Origin: Microbacterium sp. CH12i
GTDB taxonomy: Bacteria; Actinomycetota; Actinomycetes; Actinomycetales; Microbacteriaceae
NCBI RefSeq assembly: GCF_000685355.1
Contig: NZ_JHET01000013.1
Coordinates: 62,001-126,000, forward strand
DNA length: 64,000 bases
Reading direction: 5' to 3'
Positions within the stretch are counted from its first letter, which is position 1; the number at the start of each line of letters is the position of its first letter. The notes beneath the pieces were generated by a model. It was given only the letters and a program-made list of their open reading frames with translations. It did no database searches and was not told the origin of the DNA. Shown here piece after piece: positions 4,293 to 58,096 of the stretch. A program made the position numbers and the translations under genes.

Positions 4293-5252
4293 TCAGCCGC
4301 GCATCAGAGACCGCCGTGCGGAAGGCCTACTACCCGCAGGCGTCAGCACGGCGAGGATGCGCACGAGTGTCGTGAGCCAGAGCAGCCCGAGACCGATCAC
4401 AACCGCTTCCAGCACCGTGATGGCGAAGAGCCGAAAGCCGAAGGCCAGCACACACGCGACGACGAGCAGCAGCGCGATGCCGATCGTGGTGAGCAGAAGC
4501 GGACGCGGCGGCCCCGGAATCAACAGGGTGGTGATCACTCCGGCGGCGACGAACAGAATGAGTGTGCTGAAAGCTGCGATGTTGTGAAGCAGTGCGCTCC
4601 GCTCGAGCGGGAACAGCCCGATCGCGGCGAGTGCGACACCGGTCGCCGCCCACAAGACGACGACCCAGGCGATTCGACTGAGCGCGCTGTCACCTCGGAT
4701 GCGGTGCAGGTCACGTCCGATATACGAGCCGACAGTGGCGGTGAGGATGCCGGCCACGAGCAGCGTGCCGTTGAATGCCCAGGCGCCGGCGCCGATGCCG
4801 AGCTGCGAGAAGTTCCGCTCCCACCACCGCGGGTCAGCGGCAGTGATCATGGCGAACAGAGTACCGATCACAAGGTAGCTGAACAGCAGCGCGGCAAGGT
4901 CTGCGGTGCGAAGGCCGATTCCGGCGGCGAAGGTCAGCCGACCGGCGAGCGCGCTGGCGACTCCGGCGAGAAGGCCGCCTCCGAGGGGAGAAAGCTGGAG
5001 CCCCTGCAGTCCGACGCCCAGTACTTCGCTGGCAAGCAGCACGCCGAGTGCGGTGACCCCGGCGAAGGCGATCGTCAGCGCGACGGCAGACAGTGCCGAG
5101 ATGGTCGCCTGCCACCTGGGCATCGACGCGTTCTGACCTCGGCGGTGTAGGAAGGTGCTGACCACGAAGGACGCCGCGGCGATCACCCCTGCGACTGCTG
5201 CGACCGGCATCCCGACAGAGCCGTCTCCGGCGATCGGTCGCGGTTTCCCCAC
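4293..5252 (-). CDS. DUF998-type multi-pass membrane protein, N-terminus probably frameshifted
   Basis: The open frame from a GTG at 5252 encodes 319 residues with about eight hydrophobic helices and the short hydrophilic loops seen in DUF998 proteins. It begins KPRPIAGDGSVGMPVAA, which in this family follows a first transmembrane segment ending in LWG. That segment is present just upstream in another frame: MNQEQRMRAETRAIWATVVC from an ATG at 5347, then FLVGAGAGMLALWG. Restoring one base in the GGGGAAA run at 5244-5250 fuses the two. The true gene is therefore probably 4293-5347. Function unknown; neighbours give no clear pathway. Confidence 0.7.
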   Translation of the reverse strand: MGKPRPIAGDGSVGMPVAAVAGVIAAASFVVSTFLHRRGQNASMPRWQATISALSAVALTIAFAGVTALGVLLASEVLGVGLQGLQLSPLGGGLLAGVASALAGRLTFAAGIGLRTADLAALLFSYLVIGTLFAMITAADPRWWERNFSQLGIGAGAWAFNGTLLVAGILTATVGSYIGRDLHRIRGDSALSRIAWVVVLWAATGVALAAIGLFPLERSALLHNIAAFSTLILFVAAGVITTLLIPGPPRPLLLTTIGIALLLVVACVLAFGFRLFAITVLEAVVIGLGLLWLTTLVRILAVLTPAGSRPSARRSLMRG

Positions 5253-38552: not shown

Positions 38553-38587
38553 TTGCACTCAGTATCGATGGATGTCAATATAGACAC
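38553..38587 (+). promoter_or_regulatory. Probable promoter/operator of the arsenic genes
   Basis: TTGCAC (38553-38558), a 17-base spacer and CAATAT (38576-38581) form a plausible promoter. The start point would fall close to the ATG at 38588, implying a leaderless transcript. The overlapping TGTC-AATATA-GACA symmetry (38573-38586) is a candidate binding site for the ArsR encoded downstream. Confidence 0.5.
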
Positions 38588-44466: not shown

Positions 44467-45810
44467 TCACGCCGCGATGTCGAACCGCGCCCGACCTCCG
44501 AGCCGCGGCCTGCGAGTCGGATCGACATAGGGCGGCGGGATGAACCACACTCGGGCAGCTGTGCCCGTGCCATCGATCCGTATCTCCCACCCGTTGTCAT
44601 GGATGCGATGGTGACACGTCTCACAAAGGAGCACTCCGTTCGAGAGATCGGTGCTGCCGTGATGTCGTTGCCACCAGCGAATGTGATGCGCCCTCGTCAT
44701 TTCTGGCGGAAGCGCACACATCGCACACCCACCGTCCCGCTCGCCCAGGGCGAGGCGTTGCGCTCGAGTGAACAGCCTCTTCTCGCGTCCCCAATCGAGA
44801 ATCTCGCTTTCCCCGTTGAAAACGCAGGGAATCACTCCGCCGTTGGCAGCCATCCGGCGAGCAGCACCGGCGCTGACTGGCTGGTCAACCCCGTCGACTG
44901 CCGCTGAGCCGGTGCCCGCCTGCAGATCGTCCAGGTTCATGCGGATAATCACGGTCGCTCCGGCAACGGGAAGCCCCTTTTCGGAGCAACCGAGCACGTG
45001 AGCGCAGAACAGACTGAGCGCGTCGGCCTGGAGCATCGCCACACTGCGGCGGTCAGCATCCGGCGCGTCGGGATCGACAGCATTCTTCCGCGCCGCGAAC
45101 GCGGCGGTGACATACCCGCGCATGGCAGTGACGAACGGAGCGGCTGACTCCGCGTCAAACTTTCCATTGAAATGCACCATGCCATCGCGCTCGAAAATCG
45201 TCAGTGATCGCTTGGATCGGTGCTCGTCCTCCCGCGGCTCGACGCCGTCTGGATCGAGCCACGCCTCAGCGCGCACGATGAGCTTTCGCAGGTCGTCGAG
45301 CGAGAGCCCGGCGGCCGATCCGGTGAGTACACACTCACCCTCGGCGATCAGCTCTGCTCCGGCGGCGATACGACACCGATCAAGCAGAGCGATGATCATC
45401 GCGGCGGCCTGAGCGCTGAGCGCGCCTGAGGCGAGAGCTTCGCGGATGATCGGGTACTTCGCCGGCAACGGATTACCCAGCAGGTCACTGCGTGGAGCGG
45501 TGGCTTCCCCCACCTTGATCAAACGCGTCGCGTCGCCGGTCGATACTCCGGTAGCTGCGGCGATGAGCTTTGCAGGAGTACGAAACCCCTGCTGCTTCGC
45601 GAGACTGTCTGGTCCGAGTTCGCGACGAGATTCACTCGAGATACCAGCCGCCACATCGACGTGCACGGCATCGAGTCGACGTTGCAGCACACCGATCGTG
45701 TCTTCGATCTGAATGAGCTTCTCTCTCGAAAGAGTATTCGAACTTTCGGCATCGGCCCACACCTCATCCAGGCGGGATACCGCCTGGATAAGTGGGGTCA
45801 ACTTCGACAT
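44467..45810 (-). CDS. DUF222/13E12-type protein with HNH endonuclease domain
   Basis: 447 residues from ATG 45810, with GCTGGAG upstream; the longer open frame would add low-complexity Cys-Val repeats. The N-terminal ~300 residues are DUF222 (RTPAKLIAAATGVSTGDATR, GALSAQAAAMIIALLDR). The C-terminal HNH motif is GGCAMCALPPEMTRAHHIRW followed by GVLLCETCHHRIHDNGWEI with paired cysteines. These genes are multi-copy in many actinobacteria and often damage-inducible. A LexA-like box lies 32-47 bases upstream. Role possibly in mobile element spread or DNA processing. Confidence 0.9.
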   Translation of the reverse strand: MSKLTPLIQAVSRLDEVWADAESSNTLSREKLIQIEDTIGVLQRRLDAVHVDVAAGISSESRRELGPDSLAKQQGFRTPAKLIAAATGVSTGDATRLIKVGEATAPRSDLLGNPLPAKYPIIREALASGALSAQAAAMIIALLDRCRIAAGAELIAEGECVLTGSAAGLSLDDLRKLIVRAEAWLDPDGVEPREDEHRSKRSLTIFERDGMVHFNGKFDAESAAPFVTAMRGYVTAAFAARKNAVDPDAPDADRRSVAMLQADALSLFCAHVLGCSEKGLPVAGATVIIRMNLDDLQAGTGSAAVDGVDQPVSAGAARRMAANGGVIPCVFNGESEILDWGREKRLFTRAQRLALGERDGGCAMCALPPEMTRAHHIRWWQRHHGSTDLSNGVLLCETCHHRIHDNGWEIRIDGTGTAARVWFIPPPYVDPTRRPRLGGRARFDIAA

Positions 45811-45841
45811 AACTCCAGCGTACCCCATAAAGTGAGATTTG

Positions 45842-45857
45842 TCGAAGTTTTGTTCGA
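45842..45857. promoter_or_regulatory. LexA/SOS-box-like site upstream of the HNH gene
   Basis: On the minus strand the sequence is TCGAACAAAACTTCGA. It matches the actinobacterial SOS pattern TCGAAC-N4-GTTCGA except for one base in the right half. It lies 32 bases before the DUF222-HNH start codon, in promoter position. Confidence 0.5.
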
Positions 45858-45930
45858 AAGATTTTAGAATTGCACGCGGTGCGAGGAAGACGCGACAGAT
45901 GCTGATCACGATCAGGCGTAAGTAAGCCCC

Positions 45931-45957
45931 GCACACGCACACGCACACGCACACGCA
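45931..45957. repeat. Hexanucleotide microsatellite (GCACAC)4
   Basis: Four full copies of GCACAC plus a partial one stand between the HNH gene and the next gene. Such tracts can vary by slippage. It is not in a recognised coding region. Confidence 0.75.
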
Positions 45958-46012
45958 CCCAAGCTGGCGCCCACTCAGCGGATCGCCATGCGGAGCGGCA
46001 ACGGGGAACTGC

Positions 46013-47305
46013 TCACAGCAGCGCGGCACGAGCGACCGCCCGCATGGCTGGCGAGATCACGCCGAACCGGTCTGGTTCCGACAGCGCAGCGAGCCTGTCG
46101 ATGGTCTGCCTAACCTGCACCGGCATCCCGGTTTCGGCATTCGACGCCGAACGATCGAACGGACTCGTGTACAGGCCATACTCGTCGTAGCCATCTGGTG
46201 AACATCGATACTCTTCGGTCGCCGCCCTGCCGAGGTCGACCAGCGCCGGAAGCTCGGCGAAGGTCTCAGCGGACCCATCAGCGATCGCGAGGAGCGCAAG
46301 TGTCTGATCGCATGAATCGGCGTCGAAAGACCACCCGCCATAGCGATTGCCGCGTTCGGTGACCGCCCGGGCGAGTTCGCACAACGTCTTCGAGCCGGGT
46401 TCAACAAGCGAACGTCCGCGCTTCGTCACCAGGATGCGGCCTTTCAGCCGTCGGATCAGCTTCGACTGACGCGCTAGCGACAGCAGCGCCTCGCCTGGCG
46501 CGCTGACGCTATCCGCGCCCCCCGCCGCCGCGCCCGTCGCGCCCGCCGACGCCCAGCCAAGTGCGCGCACGATCGCCGCAACGTCTCGGTCGGCGAGCCA
46601 TCCGGTCTCGGAATCCTGGACCAGACCAGCAGCACCGACGCACTCGAACAATGCGGTGAGCGACGCCAGCGCTGACTCGACCGTACTCCACTCAAGTGGT
46701 CGTTCCTCAAGGATTCCCGTGTCGTCGAGGTGTACAAGAAGCGCGAGTCGGCGGGTCGGGGCCAACGATCGGAGCAGGGAGTCGAGTCGAGAAGACGATC
46801 GGATGCCGTGGCCACCAGCGAGTCCAGAATCGTCGAAGCGCGGGACGACGACTCCGAACCGCTGTGCGAGTTCGTTGTTGATGTGGTGGACGCGAAACGG
46901 GGGTGCGTCGCTCTGCCATCGTCCGATGACCGGTGCGGGCGCATCCGGCTCGGCATCGACAACCGCAACGCACGGATCACCGACCGCGGGCGTGCCTGCG
47001 CCCATGACAAATACGTCGATCTCGTGCGGTATCTCCGGGAGCCGCATCGTCTGACGTTCGACGCGCCAGTGTGGCGGAGAAAGCTCAAGCCGCCCATCAA
47101 AGTCACTGTGAATGTCATCGCGAGGTGTACCGAGGCTCAACAGATAGGCCTCGACGAGCCAATCGGCGGATGCTCCGGAGGGCAGCTCGATGGAGCGATC
47201 AAACTCTGAGTGCCCGGCGACAGAGAGCCGAACATGAATGGAGGGCGTGACGCGGAGGCGTGAGAGAAGGTTCATGCCGTTCACGCTAAGAATCGCGCCC
47301 GACAC
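46013..47305 (-). CDS. Hypothetical protein with pRiA4b ORF3-like N-terminus
   Basis: 430 residues from a GTG at 47305 preceded by AGAGG; an ATG at 47275 is an alternative. The opening RLRVTPSIHVRLSVAGHSEF, DRSIELPSGASADWLVEAYL resembles the first strands of plasmid pRiA4b ORF-3-like proteins (weak). Later, SLARQSKLIRRLKGRILVTK followed by RGRSLVEPGSKTLCELARAV looks like a winged-helix segment. No catalytic motif recognised. It stands between the HNH gene and ssb. Function unknown. Confidence 0.65.
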   Translation of the reverse strand: MSGAILSVNGMNLLSRLRVTPSIHVRLSVAGHSEFDRSIELPSGASADWLVEAYLLSLGTPRDDIHSDFDGRLELSPPHWRVERQTMRLPEIPHEIDVFVMGAGTPAVGDPCVAVVDAEPDAPAPVIGRWQSDAPPFRVHHINNELAQRFGVVVPRFDDSGLAGGHGIRSSSRLDSLLRSLAPTRRLALLVHLDDTGILEERPLEWSTVESALASLTALFECVGAAGLVQDSETGWLADRDVAAIVRALGWASAGATGAAAGGADSVSAPGEALLSLARQSKLIRRLKGRILVTKRGRSLVEPGSKTLCELARAVTERGNRYGGWSFDADSCDQTLALLAIADGSAETFAELPALVDLGRAATEEYRCSPDGYDEYGLYTSPFDRSASNAETGMPVQVRQTIDRLAALSEPDRFGVISPAMRAVARAALL

Positions 47306-49785: not shown

Positions 49786-51004
49786 CTATCGATCGGATGC
49801 CGGGGTGCGATCCCGCTGCCCCGCCAGCACCCCGGCGAACGCAATCGCCACGACCCCAGCCACCGGCACCACGATCAGTCCCGCCCGCAGCCCCGCATTG
49901 TCGGCGATGAATCCGACAAACGGCGGGGATAGCAAGAACCCGAGCCGCAGCAACCACGACACGATCGTGAGTCCCGCGCCGTGTCGCAGTCCGGGCAGAG
50001 CATCCGCCGCCTGCATGGCAGCAGGGATGAGGGTCGCAGAACCGAACCCTGCCAGCGCAAAGCCCAGAATCGTGATCGGCACGGTCGGGAAGGCCAACGC
50101 CAACCCCATGCCGACGGCGATGATGAGTCCGCCGGCACGTGCAACGTTGCGCTGCCCGAAGACGTCAACCATCCGGTCGCCGATGATTCGGCCGATGAAC
50201 TGTGCGCCGACGAGGGCGATGTATCCGGTGGCGGCGATGACTATCGGAGCATCGAGCGAGTCTGAGAGGTAGAGCGTCGCCCATGACATTCCGGCATCCT
50301 CAACGACAGCGCCTGCGATCGAGATCAACACGAGAGCGACGATGACGAACACGGTCTTCGCGCCGATGCGAACCAGCGCCCCGCTGATCTCCGCACCTCC
50401 GGCGACTGCCTCTTCTTCTGTGACCTCATCGCGGCCCGGCAGGCATAGTCGCAGGGCGATGAGCGAGACGACGCAGAAGATCACAGCGGAGATGATCAGG
50501 TGGATGCCGATGGGCAGACCCGTCGCGATCGCGACGGCCGCCATCGATCCGCCGAGGACCGCACCGATCGACCAGGTCGCGTGGAAGGAGTTGATGATCG
50601 AGCGACCGTAGCCGCGCTGCACCCGTAGACCGTGGGCGTTCTGCGCGACGTCGGTGATGGCATCCGCCGCTCCCCCGACCAGCAATCCGAGCGCGAACAG
50701 CAGCACGTGCGGCGAGAGCCCCGCGGCGAGAATGCCGAGGCTGGTGAGGATGGTTCCGGCGACGGCGACCTTCGCTGAGCCGAATCGGCGGATGAACATC
50801 GCCGCCGCAAGACCCGCGATGATCGCACCAGCAGGGAAGGCCGCGATCGCGAGGCCGTAGGCGCGGCATCCAGACCGAGGGATGCTTTGATCTCGGGGTA
50901 GCGCGGCAGGATGTTGGCGAACAGCGCGCCGTTCGTCAGGAACAGCAGCGCGACGCGACGCGGGCTCGGCGCAGGGCCGGGTCGAGGGTGGGGGAACCAG
51001 ACAC
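49786..51004 (-). pseudogene. MFS transporter with two frameshifts near the N-terminus
   Basis: From 50799 leftward, 337 residues form most of an MFS protein (FIRRFGSAKVAVAGTILTSL, GGAADAITDVAQNAHGLRVQ, FHATWSIGAVLGGSMAA, LVGAQFIGRIIGDRMVDVFG). The missing first two helices are in other frames just upstream: MSGSPTLDPALRRARVAS from a GTG at 51004, then LLFLTNGALFANILPRYPEI and KASLGLDAA, then AYGLAIAAFPAGAIIAGLAA. Single lost bases near 50952 and near 50864 restore a 406-residue transporter. The FHATWS/QNAHG pattern is typical of fucose-permease-like MFS proteins of actinobacteria. Confidence 0.78.
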
Positions 51005-51023
51005 GTGTACGACCGTATCGGTG

Positions 51024-51485
51024 TCAGCGTCCCCCGGCGTTCACCCCGCTCACACCGAGCGGCGCCGAGCGGTGCACCGTGATCGGGTCGAACACTTCCC
51101 CCACCGCGTAATAGCCGCCGAACAGCTGGGCGCCCGCAGGAGTCAGCGTCACCTGCTCGAACACGATGTCACCTCCGTCTTCGCGCGGGGCGCTGAGCGC
51201 GAAAGCATCCACAGCCTGCCCACCGGGCGAGGTCGCGAGCAGCCAGGAGCCAGCTGCCGAGCGGTATGCGCGCAGCGATTCCAGTGACGTGATCGGCATT
51301 CCGTAGTGGGCGAACAGCGACACCGATCCGGTCGTCGCGTACTCGGCGGCAGCGGATGCCGCAGAGACCAGAGGGAAACGGAACTGCCCGTTCTGCGACG
51401 TCACGCCATCGACGCGCACAGCACCACCCGGCGATGACGTGACGTACAGAAGAAGGCTGAGCTTGATGCTCCACTCGAGGTACAT
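51024..51485 (-). CDS. HtaA-domain protein without signal peptide
   Basis: 153 residues forming a single HtaA domain (PF04213-like): YLEWSIKLSLLLYVTSSPGG, FRFPLVSAASAAAEYATTGS, VSLFAHYGMPITSLESL and FEQVTLTPAGAQLFGGYYAV. HtaA domains bind haem in corynebacterial haem uptake, where they are secreted and membrane-anchored. This copy has neither signal peptide nor C-terminal anchor, so it should be cytosolic. A tyrosine (14) and a histidine (60) are in plausible haem-contact positions. It starts ten bases after the P450 stop, so it is co-transcribed with a haem enzyme. Function here is inference. Confidence 0.75.
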   Translation of the reverse strand: MYLEWSIKLSLLLYVTSSPGGAVRVDGVTSQNGQFRFPLVSAASAAAEYATTGSVSLFAHYGMPITSLESLRAYRSAAGSWLLATSPGGQAVDAFALSAPREDGGDIVFEQVTLTPAGAQLFGGYYAVGEVFDPITVHRSAPLGVSGVNAGGR

Positions 51486-51494
51486 GACTACTTC

Positions 51495-53747
51495 TCAGGC
51501 ATCGAGCACGAGCCGCGGGCAGTTGCCCATGGCACGCGACACGCAGATCATCATGGATTCGCCGCGCTGCTGCTCCTTCGGAGTGAGGATCGAGTCGCGG
51601 TGGTCGGCCTCACCGCTGAGGATCGGGGTCTCGCACGTGCCGCAGGTGCCCTCCCGGCACGATGACATCGTGGTGAGACCGGCCTTCTCGGCAGCATCCA
51701 GAATCGATACCCCCACCGGAACGGTCACAACCCGACCCGACGTCGCGAACTCGACCTCGAACTCGGTGTCGGGGCTGGTGTGCTCGATCTTCTTGGGCGC
51801 GAAGCGCTCGGTGTGCAGGGTGTCCTCCGGCCAGTACGCGAGGGCCCCATCGAGCGCCTTGAGCAGCGGCTCGGGTCCGCACGCGTAGACCAGAGTGTCG
51901 GCAGCGACCTCGGCGAAGATCCCCGCCAGATCGAGGTGCCCGAACTCATCCTGCGGAACCAGGTGCGCCCGGTCGCCGTACGATTCGAGCTCGTCGACGA
52001 AGGCCATCGACCTGCGCGAGCGGCCGCCGTAGTGCAGCTCCCACTCGGCGCCAGCGGCCTCTGCCGCCGCGATCATCGGCAGCATGGGTGTGATGCCGAT
52101 GCCGCCGGCGACGAACACGTAGCGCTGCGAGGGCAGGAAGTGGAAGTTGTTGCGCGGCCATCCGACCCGGATGCTGTCGCCCGCAGCCAGCGCATCGTGC
52201 ACAGCGAGCGATCCTCCGCGGCCATTCACCTCGCGCAGGATGCCAAGGCGCCATTCGCTGCGCTCGTTCGGAGACGACGACAGTGAGTACTGCCGCACGA
52301 CCACGCCGCCGCCGGCGACGGGCACAGCCACATCGACGTGCGCGCCGGGCAGCCACTCGGGAAGGACGTCGCCGTCAGGATGCCGCAGCGTGAGCGCTGC
52401 GACACTGTCGGCGGCATCCGTCTTGCTCGCGATCGTGAGGCTCATGTCGCGCTTGACATTCTTCTTGGCCTTTTCGATGTCGGCGACATCCCAGACCACC
52501 GGCAGGCTCGTGCGCACCGGGAGAAGCGCCATCTTGATGAACTCGAGCGGGAAGTCCGGCACCGGTCGCAGCGAGGGGAGGCGCTCGAAGAGCACCTTGA
52601 GTCCTGTCGCACCCTGCACGCGGGCGAGCTCCTGACCGAGGCAGGTGTGGCGACCCATCGTGAAGGCGAGGTGATCGGTGGGATTCTCGCGGTGGATGTC
52701 GAAATCGAAGGGCGCGTCGTGGTGCGCTGCCTCGGTGTTGGCGCTGGCGAGCGCGACCCAGATCATGTCGCCCTTGGCAATCTGCACGCCCGAGAGCTCC
52801 ATGTCGCGCATGGCTTGGCGGGAGGCGAACGGCGCGGAGGGGCGACGACGAACGGTCTCTTCGAAGACGTTGGCCCACAGTGACGGCTCGGCGATGGCCT
52901 CGTCGATGTACTGCGGCTTCTGGCTGAGGAAGAGGATGGCGTTGGTCATCGCCTGGGCGGTGCTATCGGTTCCGGCCATCGCGAACTCGCAGATCTTGAT
53001 GGCGATCTGCGGCACGGTCAGCGCGTAGTCGCCATCGGCGCCGCGCTGCACAGCCATCTCGCTGATGAAGTCGCTGCCAGGGTTCTCACGGCGCTCGGAG
53101 ACCACGGTCGACATCTCGGCGAACGCGCCGGAGAAGCCCTCCCACACCTCGTCGATGACGTCGGCGGGCATCTCCTCCTGCGCGGAGGAGAGCACTCGGC
53201 CCATGTCGCCGCGAAGACGGCGCATGAGGTCGTCGTACTCCCAGCCGAGGCCGAGGTGGGCGAGCAGCGTCTGCGTCGTCAGGTCGAGGCAGTACTCGGC
53301 CATGATGTTCGCCGAGCCCTGCTGCTGGATCTTGTCGAGGATGCGGTGCGCGCGTTCCTCGATCTGCGGACGCAGTTCTTCCATGCGCGCCTTCGTGAAC
53401 CCGCGCAGGGCGATGTTGCGGTGCAGGGTGTGCTCGTCGGGATCCATGCCGACGATGAGCTGTGCCATAAGTCCCGGCGGCACGATGTGCTGGAAACGCT
53501 CAGGCACATCGATCGTCGCGGTGTTTCCGGCGGACGAGAATTCGGTCCACTCGCCGAGGACGGTCAGTACGTCTTCGCGCCGGGTGACGATCCAGGCGTT
53601 CAGCCAGGCGTACCAGAACACCGGGTTCTCGTCGCGCACAGCGGCGAAGTGCGCGGCGGGGTCGCGGTAGTAGTCGTCGCTCATGGCGTCGAAGGCGGCG
53701 GCCACGGGGCGCGGGGCCACCGCGGGTGCGGTGAGGATGTCGGTCAT
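51495..53747 (-). CDS. Self-sufficient cytochrome P450 fused to phthalate-dioxygenase-type reductase (class VII, CYP116B-like)
   Basis: 750 residues from ATG 53747 (MTDILTAPAV). P450 domain 1-415: I-helix AMAGTDSTAQA (256-266), ExxR as ETVR (297-300), haem ligand Cys369 in FTMGRHTCLGQELA. Reductase: FMN site RQYSLSS (485-491), NAD(P)H site AGGIGITPMLPM (547-558), YACGPEPLL (621-629). C-terminal [2Fe-2S] ferredoxin with Cys697, 702, 705 and 735. The order P450-FMN-NADH-2Fe2S is that of P450-PFOR enzymes, which need no separate redox partners. It lies in a TetR-controlled cluster with a hydrolase and an SDR. Substrate unknown. Confidence 0.95.
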   Translation of the reverse strand: MTDILTAPAVAPRPVAAAFDAMSDDYYRDPAAHFAAVRDENPVFWYAWLNAWIVTRREDVLTVLGEWTEFSSAGNTATIDVPERFQHIVPPGLMAQLIVGMDPDEHTLHRNIALRGFTKARMEELRPQIEERAHRILDKIQQQGSANIMAEYCLDLTTQTLLAHLGLGWEYDDLMRRLRGDMGRVLSSAQEEMPADVIDEVWEGFSGAFAEMSTVVSERRENPGSDFISEMAVQRGADGDYALTVPQIAIKICEFAMAGTDSTAQAMTNAILFLSQKPQYIDEAIAEPSLWANVFEETVRRRPSAPFASRQAMRDMELSGVQIAKGDMIWVALASANTEAAHHDAPFDFDIHRENPTDHLAFTMGRHTCLGQELARVQGATGLKVLFERLPSLRPVPDFPLEFIKMALLPVRTSLPVVWDVADIEKAKKNVKRDMSLTIASKTDAADSVAALTLRHPDGDVLPEWLPGAHVDVAVPVAGGGVVVRQYSLSSSPNERSEWRLGILREVNGRGGSLAVHDALAAGDSIRVGWPRNNFHFLPSQRYVFVAGGIGITPMLPMIAAAEAAGAEWELHYGGRSRRSMAFVDELESYGDRAHLVPQDEFGHLDLAGIFAEVAADTLVYACGPEPLLKALDGALAYWPEDTLHTERFAPKKIEHTSPDTEFEVEFATSGRVVTVPVGVSILDAAEKAGLTTMSSCREGTCGTCETPILSGEADHRDSILTPKEQQRGESMMICVSRAMGNCPRLVLDA

Positions 53748-53785
53748 GTCGAACTCCGTCGTTCTCGGGTGGTTTCGGATGCCGG

Positions 53786-54987
53786 TCAGAGGGCGGCGGC
53801 GATCGCCATCGTCGACAGCTTCTGGAAGCGGGCGACGTTCTCGCTCTCTTCCATGACTCCGGCGGAGAGGAAGGTGAAGGTGAAGTCGCGCTCTGGATCG
53901 ACCCAGAACAGCGATGAGCCGGCACCGTAGTTGCCGTGCGTGCGCGGGGAGGTGAAGGGCCCGAAGAAGCTCGGCGCCGTGCCGGTGCCCGAGAGCGAGA
54001 ATCCGAGGCCGAAGTTGCCCTTCGGGCTCTCCCATCCGCGCGCCTTCGCCATCTCGGCGTAGAGATCGTTGGGCATCTCGCCGGTCTGCAGCGTGGTGGC
54101 CTGATCGAGGATCGCGGGCGCGACGAGGTGCTCGCCGTTGTGCTCTCCGCGGCGGCGCAGCCACTCGGCGAACGCGTGCACGTCGTCAGCGGTGGAGACC
54201 GAGCCCACCCACGGCATCTCGGCATCTGCGGTGATCACGTCGTTGAGCACTTCGATGTCGCTCGGCTGCAGGAAGCCACCCTCGGGGAGGTAGGCCTTCA
54301 GTGGCACAGCGCGATCGGCCAGTGCTGCAGGCAGCCCGAACGACGTGTCGGTCATGCCGAGCGGGCGGAAGATCAACTCCTGTGCGAGCGCACCGAACGA
54401 TTCCGCACCATAGGCGCGGCGAACCATCTCACCCATCAGGCGTGGTTGATGGCCGGTGCGTAGTTGAGGTTCTCCCCCGGCTCGAACAGCACGTCCACGC
54501 CACCGAGCGCCTGGATGACGTCGGCGAGCACGCCGAAGCCTTCGGGGCCGAGGCCGGGGTTCGGCGTGGGGGTGAGCCCTGAGCGGTGCGTGAGCAGGTG
54601 GATGAGGTTGATGCGGTCTTTGCGCAGCATCCGGAATGGATCGGTGCCGAGGAACTCGGGGATCAGGTCGACGACCCTGGTCGAGAGCGCGAGCTTGCCC
54701 TCGCCGATGGCGCGCAGCGCCATGAGGTTCGTGAACGCCTTCGTCAGCGAGAGCACGCGGAACACGTTGTCCGGGCGCATCTCACGTCCGGTTGCGCGCT
54801 CGGCCCAGCCGATCGTGGCGTCGAGCACCTTCTCGCCGCCGCGCGCGAGGATCACGTGCACGCCGTCGTAGGCGCCGCGTTCGATGCCGGAGGCGATCTC
54901 GGCGGTGAAGCGCTCGATCGCGCGCGGGTCGATGTCGTCGCGGGTGACGACGTCAGCGGTGCTGGTGTGCGAAACAGGAATGATCAT
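53786..54987 (-). pseudogene. Serine hydrolase (beta-lactamase/EstB family), frameshifted
   Basis: The first frame (54987 to 54436) has MIIPVSHTSTADVVTRDDID, the nucleophile motif VFRVLSLTKAFTNLM (SxxK = SLTK) and ENLNYAPAINHA, then stops. The second frame continues LMGEMVRRAYGAESFGALAQ, ELIFRPLGMTDTSFGLP, and GNFGLGFSLSGTGTAPSFFG to FTFLSAGVMEESENVARFQK. One C missing around 54436-54439 (GCCTGATGG for GCCCTGATGG) explains the break; repaired length 400. The family includes esterases and lactonases. It lies between the SDR (12-base gap) and the P450 gene (38 bases), so it belongs to the same operon. Confidence 0.87.
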
Positions 54988-54999
54988 CGGATGCTCCGC

Positions 55000-55809
55000 T
55001 CAGACCATCACGAGCCCGCCCGAGGGCGAGATCGTCTGACCGGTCAGGTACGAGGCCGAGGGGCCGGCGAGGAAGAGCACCATCTCGGCGATCTCCTCGG
55101 GCTGCGCGGCGCGGCGGATCGGCTGCATCCCGATCAGGAAGTCGGCGAACTCCTTGTCGCTCTGACGGAACAGCGGGGTGTCGATGGCGCCGGGGGCCAG
55201 CGCGTTGACGCGGATGCCGAAGGGAGCGAGTTCTGCGGCGGCCTCGCGGGTGAGACCGAGCACTGCGGCCTTGGATGCCGGGTAGTAGGCGGGCATCGTG
55301 ACGCCCATGAGGGCTGCGGCCGACGAGAAGTTGATGATGGAGCCTGCGCCGTTGCGCTTCATCAGCGGCACCGCTGCGCGCATCGCGTAGAAGGTGCCGT
55401 AGAGGTTGATGCGCATGACGCGGTCGAAGTCCTCGTCGGTGATGAACTCGAAGAACTCGGAGTCGTGCTTGCGACCGGCCTTCATCGCATCGAAGATCTT
55501 GCGGTTCTCGTCGTTGAGCGCATCGAGCGCTGCACGGTTGGGAGCGTTGACCCCTGCCGCGTTGACGAGGACGTCGAGGCGGCCCTGCTCGGACTCTACG
55601 CGTTCGAAGGCAGCCCGCACGGCGGCACTGTCAGAGATGTCGACGGCAAGGCCGGTGGCACGATCCAGATCGGCGAGAGCGTCGACGACGCTCGGCGAGA
55701 TGTCGAGTCCGTAGACGGTGGCGCCCGCGGCGTGCAGCGCGCGAACAGTGGCAAGCCCCATCCCGGAGCCAGCCCCGGTGACAAGTGCGACGGTGCCCTC
55801 GAATGTCAT
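55000..55809 (-). CDS. SDR-family oxidoreductase of the P450 cluster
   Basis: 269 residues from ATG 55809, with a perfect GGAGGAG six bases upstream. Classical SDR: VALVTGAGSGMGLATVRALH (TGxxxGxG), LDVLVNAAGVNAPNRAALD, IINFSSAAALMGVTMPAYYP with catalytic Ser and YxxxK (YYPASK), then IRVNALAPGAIDTPLF and the C-terminal TGQTISPSGGLV. It is the first gene of a unit running into the hydrolase and P450 genes, and lies behind a 44-bp palindrome that contains the TetR-type operator. Probably oxidises or reduces the alcohol/ketone made in the pathway. Confidence 0.93.
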   Translation of the reverse strand: MTFEGTVALVTGAGSGMGLATVRALHAAGATVYGLDISPSVVDALADLDRATGLAVDISDSAAVRAAFERVESEQGRLDVLVNAAGVNAPNRAALDALNDENRKIFDAMKAGRKHDSEFFEFITDEDFDRVMRINLYGTFYAMRAAVPLMKRNGAGSIINFSSAAALMGVTMPAYYPASKAAVLGLTREAAAELAPFGIRVNALAPGAIDTPLFRQSDKEFADFLIGMQPIRRAAQPEEIAEMVLFLAGPSASYLTGQTISPSGGLVMV

Positions 55810-55856
55810 GTGCTCCTCCTCGAGCGATAGTGACGGTCTGCCTGACCGTGAGATGA

Positions 55857-55900
55857 GTCTGCCACACTCACTAGACACCTGTCTAGTGAGTGTGGCAGAC
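55857..55900. promoter_or_regulatory. 44-bp perfect palindrome with embedded TAGACA-N2-TGTCTA operator
   Basis: Arms of 21 bases (55857-55877 and 55880-55900) are perfectly complementary around CC. The centre is TAGACACCTGTCTA (55872-55885), the same motif as the site before the MFS gene (57470-57483). It lies between the MFS stop (55912) and the SDR start (55809). It may both terminate MFS transcription and bind the TetR repressor. A smaller hairpin, ACGGTC-TGCCT-GACCGT, follows at about 55833-55849. Confidence 0.75.
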
Positions 55901-55911
55901 AGACGAGATTC

Positions 55912-57405
55912 TCAGTGCGTGACGACGGCGTCTGCGAGCTTGGTCGGACGGATCACGAGTCCGCAGACGATTGCGATGAGCGTCGCGCCAGCGGCGATGA
56001 GATAGCCGGTGTCGAACAGCCCTGCCGTGGGCAGCGCGCCGCCCTCGATCGGCACCGAGTTCGCCGCCTGCAGGGCTGCGAAGATCGCCCCACCCAGCGA
56101 GGATGCCGCGAGCGCCATCGACACGTACAGCGAAGCTGTGCCCGCGGCAGTCTCCTTCGGCGCCTCGGCCGTAATGACAGACAGCGCCGTCGTCAGCAGC
56201 GCGGTGTAGCCGTATCCGAAGACCAGGATCGCGACGACGATCACCGCGAGCGAAGTGTGCTCGAAGCGCAGTGCCGTGAACGCAGCCATGAGCAGCAGTC
56301 CGCCGATCACGAGGGTGACGCCTGCGGAGGTGCGGCGAACGATGATCGGCACAGTCTTGGCCGCGACGAGCCCTGCGAGGGTCATCGGCAAGAAGACGAA
56401 GGCCGCCTGCAGCGGGCTGAGCCCGAAACCGATGCTGACCGGATCGCCGGGCACCTGAAGGAGCGTGAGGGTGAGGTTGTAGAGCAGCATCCCGCATACG
56501 CCGAGCGTCAGGAAGACGAGGTAGGCGGGGGTCAGGTTGCGTCCGAGCAGCGAGCGCACGTCGAGCAGCGGGTTCTTCGCCTTCGACTCGACGAAGAACG
56601 AGGCGGCCAGCACCGCAGCGCCGCCGAGCACGGTGAGGAGTGTCGCGGGCGAGGCCAGACCCCACGTCGTGGACTGGGCGATGCCGATGCAGAGCAGGGT
56701 GAGCCCGACGCCCAGCAGCAGCACGCCGCCGACCTCGACGCGCTGGCGGGTGCCGGCGTTGCGCACACGAGCATCCGAGTCCTTGCCCCAGATGAGGAAG
56801 GCGACCAGACTCAGGGCGGTCAGCAGGCCGCCGATCCAGAAGGCGCCGCGCCAGGTGCCGCCGAACTCGACGATCATGCCGCCGAAGGCGAAGGCGACGA
56901 AGATGCCGATGGCCTGACCACCGGCGATGATCGCGACCGCGCGGGTGCGGTCGCCCACTGAGAGTCGGGCGTTGAGGATGCCGATGCACAGCGCCTGCCC
57001 TGCCATTGTTCCGGTGAGGGCGCGGCCAATGACGAGCACGATAAAGTTCGGCGCGAGGGCCGAGATAACGAAGCCCAGGGCAATGCCGAGGACGGAGATC
57101 ACCATCAGCCGGCGGTGACCGTAGAGGTCACCCGCCTTCGACAGCAGTGCGATGGTCGCCGCACCGAAGATGGTCGTGCTCATCAGCGCCCAGGTGGCCT
57201 GGCCGGGGCTCAGAGCGAGGTCGTTGCTCATCGAGCCGTAGAGCGGGATGGCCATCATGGCTCCGACCTCGTTGAGCAGCTGCAGCAACGAGAACGTGAG
57301 GGCCATTGCCAGTCCGGCACGGCGCCAGGGGAGGAATGCGGTGGGTGCGGTGTCGCGGGTCTTTCCGCCGGCCACTGCCGGTGGAGCGATGTCGGAGGAC
57401 GTCAT
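55912..57405 (-). CDS. MFS transporter (14-helix DHA2-like) of the P450 cluster
   Basis: 497 residues from ATG 57405. About 14 hydrophobic helices. Motif A-like KAGDLYGHRRLMVISVLGIA follows helix 2, and motif C-like sequence appears as GGQAIGIFVAFAFGGMIVEF. Other blocks: LGVCGMLLYNLTLTLLQVPG and FGYGYTALLTTALSVITAEA. The DHA2 group exports drugs and organic compounds; a few import. It is preceded by TAGACACGTGTCTA, so it is likely repressed by the TetR encoded next to it. It may export a toxic product or bring in the substrate. Confidence 0.92.
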   Translation of the reverse strand: MTSSDIAPPAVAGGKTRDTAPTAFLPWRRAGLAMALTFSLLQLLNEVGAMMAIPLYGSMSNDLALSPGQATWALMSTTIFGAATIALLSKAGDLYGHRRLMVISVLGIALGFVISALAPNFIVLVIGRALTGTMAGQALCIGILNARLSVGDRTRAVAIIAGGQAIGIFVAFAFGGMIVEFGGTWRGAFWIGGLLTALSLVAFLIWGKDSDARVRNAGTRQRVEVGGVLLLGVGLTLLCIGIAQSTTWGLASPATLLTVLGGAAVLAASFFVESKAKNPLLDVRSLLGRNLTPAYLVFLTLGVCGMLLYNLTLTLLQVPGDPVSIGFGLSPLQAAFVFLPMTLAGLVAAKTVPIIVRRTSAGVTLVIGGLLLMAAFTALRFEHTSLAVIVVAILVFGYGYTALLTTALSVITAEAPKETAAGTASLYVSMALAASSLGGAIFAALQAANSVPIEGGALPTAGLFDTGYLIAAGATLIAIVCGLVIRPTKLADAVVTH

Positions 57406-57469
57406 CGTCTCAACTCTCTGTCGGGCACGGCGTCGGCGCCGTGCATCTCCGAGAGAGTAGCTCACTTGA

Positions 57470-57483
57470 TAGACACGTGTCTA
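57470..57483. promoter_or_regulatory. TAGACACGTGTCTA palindrome, probable TetR operator
   Basis: A perfect 14-base palindrome 65 bases before the MFS start and directly after the TetR gene's stop. The same half-sites (TAGACA/TGTCTA) occur in the SDR promoter palindrome at 55872-55885. On the minus strand TAGACA could act as a -35 with TACTCT 18 bases on, so binding would block RNA polymerase. Confidence 0.72.
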
Positions 57484-57490
57484 CCCAAAG

Positions 57491-58096
57491 CTATACGCGC
57501 ACCGTCAATCCGAAGGCGAGCGTGGAGGCGATCTCAGCGATGATCGCGTCGAGGAAGTCCGGCCGGTCCCCGATAATGCCGAAGTAGAAGGCGCGGTCGA
57601 TCGTCATCGCGACGGCGATCAGTCGAGCCTGAGCGCGTTCTTCGTCGAGACCCGATTCGATGAGGCGGCTGACCAGCTCGGGCAGTTCGGCGACGATGCG
57701 TCCGTACTCCTCGAACCATTCGTCAGCGACCGAGGGCTCGGCGGCCATGGCCTGCACGATCGCGCTGAACTCCATCTGGTGGCGGCGCCAGGTCGCCGCG
57801 TGCTCGCGGAGCCAGGCTTCCAGTGCGTCCTGCTCGGCGGGGATCTCCGCGAGTTTGCGGAAGTCGGCGAGGATCTCGGGCTCGACCGCGCGCATCTGCT
57901 CGATGATGATCTCAGCCTTCGAGCGGAAATAGAGATAGAAGGTCGCCCGCGAGACGTTCGCGGCTTTCGCGATCGCGTCCGCCGTCGTCGCGGAGTAGCC
58001 CTGCGCGACGAACAGGCCGCGGGCCGCAAAGATCAGGGCGTCACGCGTGCGCCTCTTCTGCTCTGCGCGCGAGACGCGCTCAGGTGCACCGCTCAA
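57491..58096 (-). CDS. TetR-family repressor of the P450 cluster
   Basis: 201 residues from a TTG at 58096; GGAG lies seven bases upstream, which fixes the start. The HTH is ALIFAARGLFVAQGYSATTA, DAIAKAANVSRATFYLYFRS. The C-terminal domain contains EFSAIVQAMAAEPSVADEWF. Its stop lies seven bases before the operator of the MFS gene. No copy of the operator is seen upstream of its own start, so it may be expressed constitutively at a low level. The inducer is presumably the pathway substrate. Confidence 0.9.
   Translation of the reverse strand: MSGAPERVSRAEQKRRTRDALIFAARGLFVAQGYSATTADAIAKAANVSRATFYLYFRSKAEIIIEQMRAVEPEILADFRKLAEIPAEQDALEAWLREHAATWRRHQMEFSAIVQAMAAEPSVADEWFEEYGRIVAELPELVSRLIESGLDEERAQARLIAVAMTIDRAFYFGIIGDRPDFLDAIIAEIASTLAFGLTVRV

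Follow-up and report, generated by a model that had tools for sequence, protein, structure and literature searches.

A single-domain HtaA protein encoded with cytochrome P450s in Microbacteriaceae: a candidate cytosolic haem partner

The gene cluster and its HtaA protein

The DNA analysed here, a stretch of 64,000 nucleotides from Microbacterium sp. CH12i (contig NZ_JHET01000013.1, positions 62,001 to 126,000; hereafter the window), harbors on the minus strand of 51024-58096 a cluster of six genes, the last of which codes for a short protein made of a single HtaA (CR) domain directly behind a cytochrome P450. The genes are listed below in the order of transcription, with identities to orthologous clusters from three other genomes of the genus (loci L063, L064 and L065).

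57491..58096, minus strand: TetR-family regulator (PF00440, 57.7 bits; identity 72% in L063 and 48% in L065)
55912..57405, minus strand: major facilitator superfamily transporter, MFS1 (PF07690, 112 bits; identity 78% in L063 and 54% in L065)
55000..55809, minus strand: short-chain dehydrogenase/reductase, SDR (PF13561, 201 bits; identity 69-84% in the three orthologous clusters)
53786..54987, minus strand: β-lactamase-fold hydrolase, frameshifted (PF00144 on both pieces)
51495..53747, minus strand: one-chain P450, FMN/NADH reductase and 2Fe-2S protein (750 residues; Pfam p450, FAD_binding_6, NAD_binding_1 and Fer2)
51024..51485, minus strand: single-domain HtaA (CR) protein (153 residues; PF04213, 46 bits against a cut-off of 24)

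An earlier note, made from the letters of this DNA, had described a TetR-controlled catabolic cluster combining a complete self-sufficient P450 with a HtaA protein devoid of export signal. The Pfam matches are in agreement with its TetR, MFS1 and SDR genes and, together with the intact motifs (Cys loop FTMGRHTCLG, RQYSL, GGIGITP and a four-cysteine 2Fe-2S motif), with the completeness of the P450, which is of the self-sufficient type with a phthalate-family oxygenase reductase (PFOR): P450, FMN/NADH reductase and 2Fe-2S domains are joined in one chain. Its closest solved sequences comprise P450s, of which two are long one-chain enzymes, as well as phthalate dioxygenase reductase. The reductase flavin is presumably flavin mononucleotide (FMN) rather than its adenine dinucleotide counterpart (FAD), as is usual for this type of reductase, and the CYP116B label is that of the earlier note. 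The hydrolase does have the announced β-lactamase fold but is not intact in the present assembly, being spread over two frames that join at about 54436 with one frameshift; in the three orthologous clusters it is an unbroken single gene, with lengths of 405, 396 and 398 residues. The distance from the P450 stop to the HtaA ATG, given before as ten bases, is 9 nt. A second transporter (MFS2) and a PfkB kinase had also been included in the cluster; neither finds a match in the three orthologous stretches, and both are therefore taken as flanking genes. No TetR gene was found in the stretch of L064.

Of the 153 residues of HtaA, the third is the first of the domain, and the placement used in our survey leaves only 5 open codons ahead of it. 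With such a short N-terminus, from which the absence of a signal was judged, an export signal cannot be accommodated, in line with the earlier note. The 16 residues past the domain contain no hydrophobic segment, and the protein thus carries neither an export signal nor a surface anchor. It belongs to the PF04213 family by its profile score above the curated cut-off, its CR fold, and its axial tyrosine, helper histidine or tyrosine, and propionate serine and tyrosine. In the crystal structures of C. diphtheriae ChtA and HtaA, these residues are the haem contacts (PMC12494546). Alignment to the solved sequences gives as window equivalents Y14 (axial), H60 (helper) and S10 with Y126 (propionate). 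In the single-domain set defined below, the axial tyrosine is kept in 90/90 sequences and the propionate tyrosine in 91/91, position 60 is histidine in 83 and tyrosine in 7 of 90, and position 10 is serine in 81 and threonine in 6 of 90. Only W5 and G53 equal the two tyrosines in invariance. H60 aligns with the residue changed in the C. glutamicum HtaA H434A structure, according to a deduced numbering.

A structure of HtaA predicted from three sequences has a mean predicted local distance difference test score (pLDDT) of 76, with values below 50 for residues 12-19 around the axial tyrosine. Its ten best structural entries are CR domains of HtaA, ChtA, HtaB and HbpA (Z 11.0-16.9 at 2.8-5.7 Å), the next entry having a Z of 6.4. 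The fold computed from a single sequence was discarded (pLDDT 45), and the lipocalin- and avidin-like rows of VIA-align, with Z around 4, were rejected as evidence of kinship since they lie in the background.

Recurrence of single-domain HtaA genes near P450 genes

The window HtaA was used as query against 398 genomes of the family and 366 genomes of the genus. From 132 distinct HtaA match rows, 109 loci were examined (108 fetched and the window), and 23 rows were left out, 19 of them in open frames of at least 285 residues and 4 short with internal stops (G059, G061, G181, G336). A locus was called single-domain when it had one domain, at most 29 residues after it, no C-terminal hydrophobic segment and a start codon within 61 residues. 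This rule splits the loci into 91 single-domain and 18 surface ones, L066 being counted among the 91 although its HtaA is a fragment. Classes drawn from open-frame length were dropped for this rule. Six of the 56 "long" loci had a P450 (L008, L015, L026, L033, L045, L062) and all six are single-domain at the level of the domain (L193, L197-L200, L202). A strongly hydrophobic stretch within the 60 codons before the domain was seen at 2 of the 91 single loci (L064 and L087), where its translation is uncertain. In the tree, the single HtaA proteins form one clade against the surface ones (support 100/98).

P450 genes were located with a profile trained on the surveyed loci, and PF00067 independently confirmed their positions. 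A P450 domain lies within 300 bp at 17/91 single loci versus 0/18 surface loci, within 2000 bp at 40/91 versus 0/18 (Fisher p 1.2e-4) and within 5000 bp at 49/91 versus 0/18 (Fisher p 8e-6). When whole-genome P450 positions on the same contig were added by hand, at least 77/91 single loci had a P450 within 25 kb. Among the first 62 loci, a P450 within 2 kb was found at 30, versus 0.35 expected from the P450 density, and in a control on seven genomes the same distance was respected by 9/12 single HtaA genes versus 4/139 aldehyde dehydrogenase genes (139 of the 169 matches, after removal of fragments and unlisted rows). In 17 of the same 62 gene-called loci, HtaA and a P450 are direct neighbours, which gives 18 pairs. 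Sixteen are on the same strand; among those the spacing is at most 30 bp in 13, and in 7 the two genes overlap by 4 bp. HtaA may precede or follow the P450, and in L081 it is flanked by two P450 genes.

The partners are diverse. Single-linkage clustering at 40% identity sorts the nearest P450s of the 49 loci that have one within 5 kb into 15 groups, and the electron supply encoded near HtaA comprises the FMN/2Fe-2S fusion of the window, fusions of the cytochrome P450 reductase (CPR) type, flavodoxin with its reductase (independent genes in L083, part of the P450 chain in L080), and genes for 2Fe-2S and 4Fe-4S ferredoxins. Neither a single substrate nor a single redox partner can therefore explain the link, and the shared factor, as judged from the sequences, is the P450 itself. 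On the tree, the labels "class I P450 near" and "no P450 near" change 18 times each, with three labels wrong: L074 was marked PFOR, and L080 and L085 were marked class I though both are reductase-flavodoxin-P450 fusions. L074 is taken as a broken CPR fusion because a flavodoxin piece follows its P450. A Mantel correlation between HtaA and P450 identities (r 0.66, 0/2000 permutations) was rejected as proof of co-evolution, since species kinship confounds it.

Among 361 genomes of the genus, full-length orthologues of the window P450 were found in three others, with 80, 69 and 66% identity, and the following full-length homologues reach 34-37% only. All four clusters (4/4) contain a HtaA gene. 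It closes the operon in the window; in L063 and L065 it is divergent from TetR, and in L064 from the SDR gene. Its position has changed and the company of the P450 has been kept. The four copies and one fragment form a clade with support 100/100. The survey proposed by the earlier note thus found the recurrence that it had asked about, in the cluster of every full-length P450 of the window kind found in the genus and next to many other P450s, but CYP116B-type enzymes are not the only ones to show the pairing. Since it recurs in the orthologues and far beyond them, it is more than chance.

In a phylum sample (396 genomes), the only short single HtaA among the matches listed is that of the window, and the others lie in frames of at least 300 residues. 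In an order sample (396 genomes), six chosen loci from two other families are single HtaA forms, and at one of them the P450 domain ends 117 bp upstream of the HtaA domain.

Several settings recur among the single loci. In ten of them (L088, L098, L123, L193, L197-L200, L202 and L208), HtaA and a CPR-fused P450 occupy opposite strands in a near-constant layout, with a distance of about 1.05-1.1 kb, possibly as one regulon; in L088 a LysR gene sits between the two. A chain of about 1000 residues in L080 (4038-7052) joins pyridine-nucleotide reductase, flavodoxin and P450, in this order, according to Pfam, and overlaps HtaA by 4 bp. The gene at 7478-10447 of L085 is similar in length, with a P450 94% identical, and in L083 the reductase, flavodoxin and P450 are separate neighbouring genes. 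In L067, L068, L071, L073 and L079, HtaA comes after genes for alanine, aldehyde and alcohol dehydrogenases and a glutamine amidotransferase, with a P450 about 10 kb away in 5/5, a setting which suggests an amine-type catabolic island. In L094, L096, L102 and L128, which lack a nearby P450, HtaA is flanked by an AEC-type transporter gene and an APP1-domain gene, and the third gene away codes for cytochrome bd subunit I (recognised by Pfam for one locus and by similarity for the others), a proximity that may be a coincidence; no P450 was found in two of these four genomes. L066 (7061-7255; 7316-9559) carries a remnant of window-type HtaA, with 77% identity over 65 residues, beside a Transposase_29 gene, and a PfkB gene 85% identical lies about 4 kb from the fragment; it is perhaps a decayed copy of the locus.

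A possible role in haem supply and its rivals

Haem acquisition by bacterial P450s is little understood and limits the production of P450 biocatalysts. The reading to which we give about an even chance is that the window HtaA is a cytosolic single-domain member of the CR family acting as a haem buffer and as a delivery or re-loading partner for the P450. It is built, at the level of sequence comparison, on the lack of an export signal, the separate clade, the conserved ligands, the fold, the operon linkage and the recurrence with many kinds of P450; from these we infer haem binding by the protein, direct transfer between HtaA and P450, and the direction of this transfer. In detail, Tyr14 of HtaA would ligate ferric haem with the help of His60. 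Ser10 and Tyr126 would hold one propionate, and the loaded protein would buffer haem and deliver it to the neighbouring P450 or re-load it. Loading, storage or protection of haem, the roles named in the earlier note, may each apply. The clade has apparently left the cell surface and is mostly retained in or near P450 gene clusters. A wider and more doubtful proposal, which we find somewhat less probable than its opposite, is that the single-domain HtaA proteins represent the first haem suppliers dedicated to P450s: a haemophore domain would have moved to the cytosol and been enlisted, one subclade after another, in the loading or re-loading of at least 15 P450 groups in Microbacteriaceae and neighbouring families.

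The protein shares with the CR domains of Corynebacterium HtaA, ChtA and HtaB the Pfam family, the fold, the axial tyrosine, the helper histidine and the propionate serine and tyrosine; unlike these haem-uptake proteins, it consists of one domain, is too short at the N-terminus for an export signal, lacks a C-terminal anchor, belongs to a separate clade and is encoded with a P450. A close precedent is DtHtaA of Dietzia, a HtaA-type protein which strips haem from a cytochrome P450 in vitro, so that haem exchange between HtaA and P450 is chemically possible; in contrast to the window protein, DtHtaA is located on extracellular membrane vesicles, serves haem and iron acquisition and targets environmental haemoproteins (PMC8027190). 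One-chain P450s of the CYP116B type, such as that of Cupriavidus JMP134, have the same P450, FMN/NADH reductase and 2Fe-2S organisation in a catabolic setting, and the beginning of the abstract does not mention HtaA (PMC8449657). Insertion of haem by mammalian GAPDH and Hsp90 offers a functional likeness in that a cytosolic protein hands haem to apo-haem enzymes, but the protein is unrelated, general and not encoded beside its client (PMC9922822). Among the open-licence PubMed Central papers listed, judged by title and abstract, no description of a HtaA-P450 pairing was found, and the Dietzia paper was the sole relevant one.

Several observations weigh against haem supply to the P450. The Dietzia experiment is a removal of haem from a P450 and not a delivery (PMC8027190). 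At 42/91 single loci there is no P450 within 5 kb, and 14/91 gave none over a range of 25 kb on their contig (L066, L090, L091, L094, L096, L102, L105, L119, L121, L122, L124, L127, L128, L216), L105, L119 and L122 being uncertain because one weak P450 match each in G485, G195 and G309 was unlisted. The role of HtaA is therefore not exclusive to P450s. Three of the genomes concerned show no P450 gene at all (G339, G365 and G670, the last an assembly of 410 contigs), and the deepest branch of single HtaA proteins, with six rows, is P450-free. In the order sample, a P450 within 7 kb was found for just 1/6 loci. Nine genomes contribute several single HtaA genes to the set. In only three of them (G395, G377, G602) does every copy have a different P450 within 2 kb; the proportion is 2/3 in G554 and 1/2 in G743 and G493, and no copy is so placed in G544, G528 and G456. 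The nearest relatives of HtaA and of its P450 agree in just 21/49 loci, so that partners may have been exchanged. HtaA and TetR are divergent in L063, and there the promoter side of HtaA carries no match to the operator candidates described below. The general view is also that P450s acquire haem without a dedicated partner.

The P450-free loci, the deepest branch and the genomes in which no P450 was found (G339, G365) indicate that HtaA can work elsewhere than with a P450, and the most economical history therefore starts from a cytosolic haem protein of general use that was later recruited into P450 clusters. If the recruitment itself were illusory, HtaA would be a general haem protein of the cytosol found in catabolic islands that also hold P450s, with no functional link between them. 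The 14 loci where no P450 was found in 25 kb and the P450-free genomes speak for this, as does the fact that related genomes are not independent, but the equally catabolic aldehyde dehydrogenases are far more rarely near a P450 (4/139 against 9/12), the operon spacing is tight with 4-bp overlaps, and the linkage is seen in several separate subclades; we regard such an absence of link as distinctly unlikely. A direct enzymatic role is unlikely rather than far-fetched. The haem of catalases is tyrosinate-ligated, and a tyrosinate-ligated HtaA could clear the peroxide of an uncoupled P450 or flavin monooxygenase (FMO), or perform a later oxidative step. The conserved Tyr/His pocket and a linkage independent of the redox partner would suit an enzyme, and in L070 a FMO-like oxidoreductase three genes away is another possible source of peroxide. 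Against it, the 20 most conserved columns hold no polar residue besides the haem contacts and Lys/Arg8, and known CR domains bind hemin in a pentacoordinate state for scavenging (PMC12494546).

The conserved haem contacts are also compatible with a sink rather than a supplier, HtaA salvaging or detoxifying the haem of damaged or over-expressed P450s; against this, the neighbours selected for annotation include neither a haem oxygenase nor a haem exporter, and we consider this idea improbable. The earlier note had further suggested that HtaA could bind substrate. A protein binding the hydrophobic substrate or product of each pathway would explain its presence in catabolic clusters, some far from any P450, and its β-sandwich fold, for which remote lipocalin-like rows were obtained (Z about 4, within the background). 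The residues that are conserved are nevertheless the haem contacts, and this across 15 P450 groups with presumably different substrates; this diversity and the ligands disfavour the suggestion, which we consider very improbable. If haem supply to the P450 is the right reading, the HtaA family gains a cytosolic branch with a job beyond iron scavenging. An operon-encoded, putatively haem-binding protein found with unrelated P450 classes makes the supply of haem to P450s directly testable by co-expression.

Candidate operators and further features of the window

Two candidate sites of the TetR operator type were found in the cluster.

57470..57483, no strand: operator candidate 1, a perfect 14-bp palindrome, TAGACACGTGTCTA, between TetR and MFS1, 5' of MFS1
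55872..55885, no strand: operator candidate 2, TAGACACCTGTCTA, between MFS1 and SDR, 62 nt 5' of the SDR start codon

The second site, which precedes SDR, hydrolase, P450 and HtaA, is a one-mismatch copy of the first. L063 has two-mismatch counterparts at both places (6317 and 4722), the one at 4722 in the MFS1-SDR interval being TAGACATCTGTCTA, and L065 has one at the first place only (6319). L064 gave zero matches with up to 3 mismatches allowed, and elsewhere in the window one additional two-mismatch site occurs at 38581. The candidates and their counterparts thus support a putative TetR-controlled unit formed by SDR, hydrolase, P450 and HtaA in the window. The catabolic order of the earlier note, from uptake to hydrolysis and then to oxidation, remains an inference. 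The best NCBIfam matches of MFS1 are efflux types, weak and below the cut-off.

The N-terminal part of MFS2, judged by eye, is apparently out of frame at about 50800-51000, and elsewhere in the source genome some aldehyde dehydrogenase matches come in abutting pieces (e.g. C2:36605-37313 and C2:51118-52514). Given these pieces, the frameshift of the hydrolase and the apparent one of MFS2, indel errors of the assembly are the likely cause, with real decay as the alternative. Near the start of the open reading frame 44467-46029 (minus strand), a dinucleotide run at about 45930-45957 translates as CVCVCVCVC, and the true start probably lies further in.

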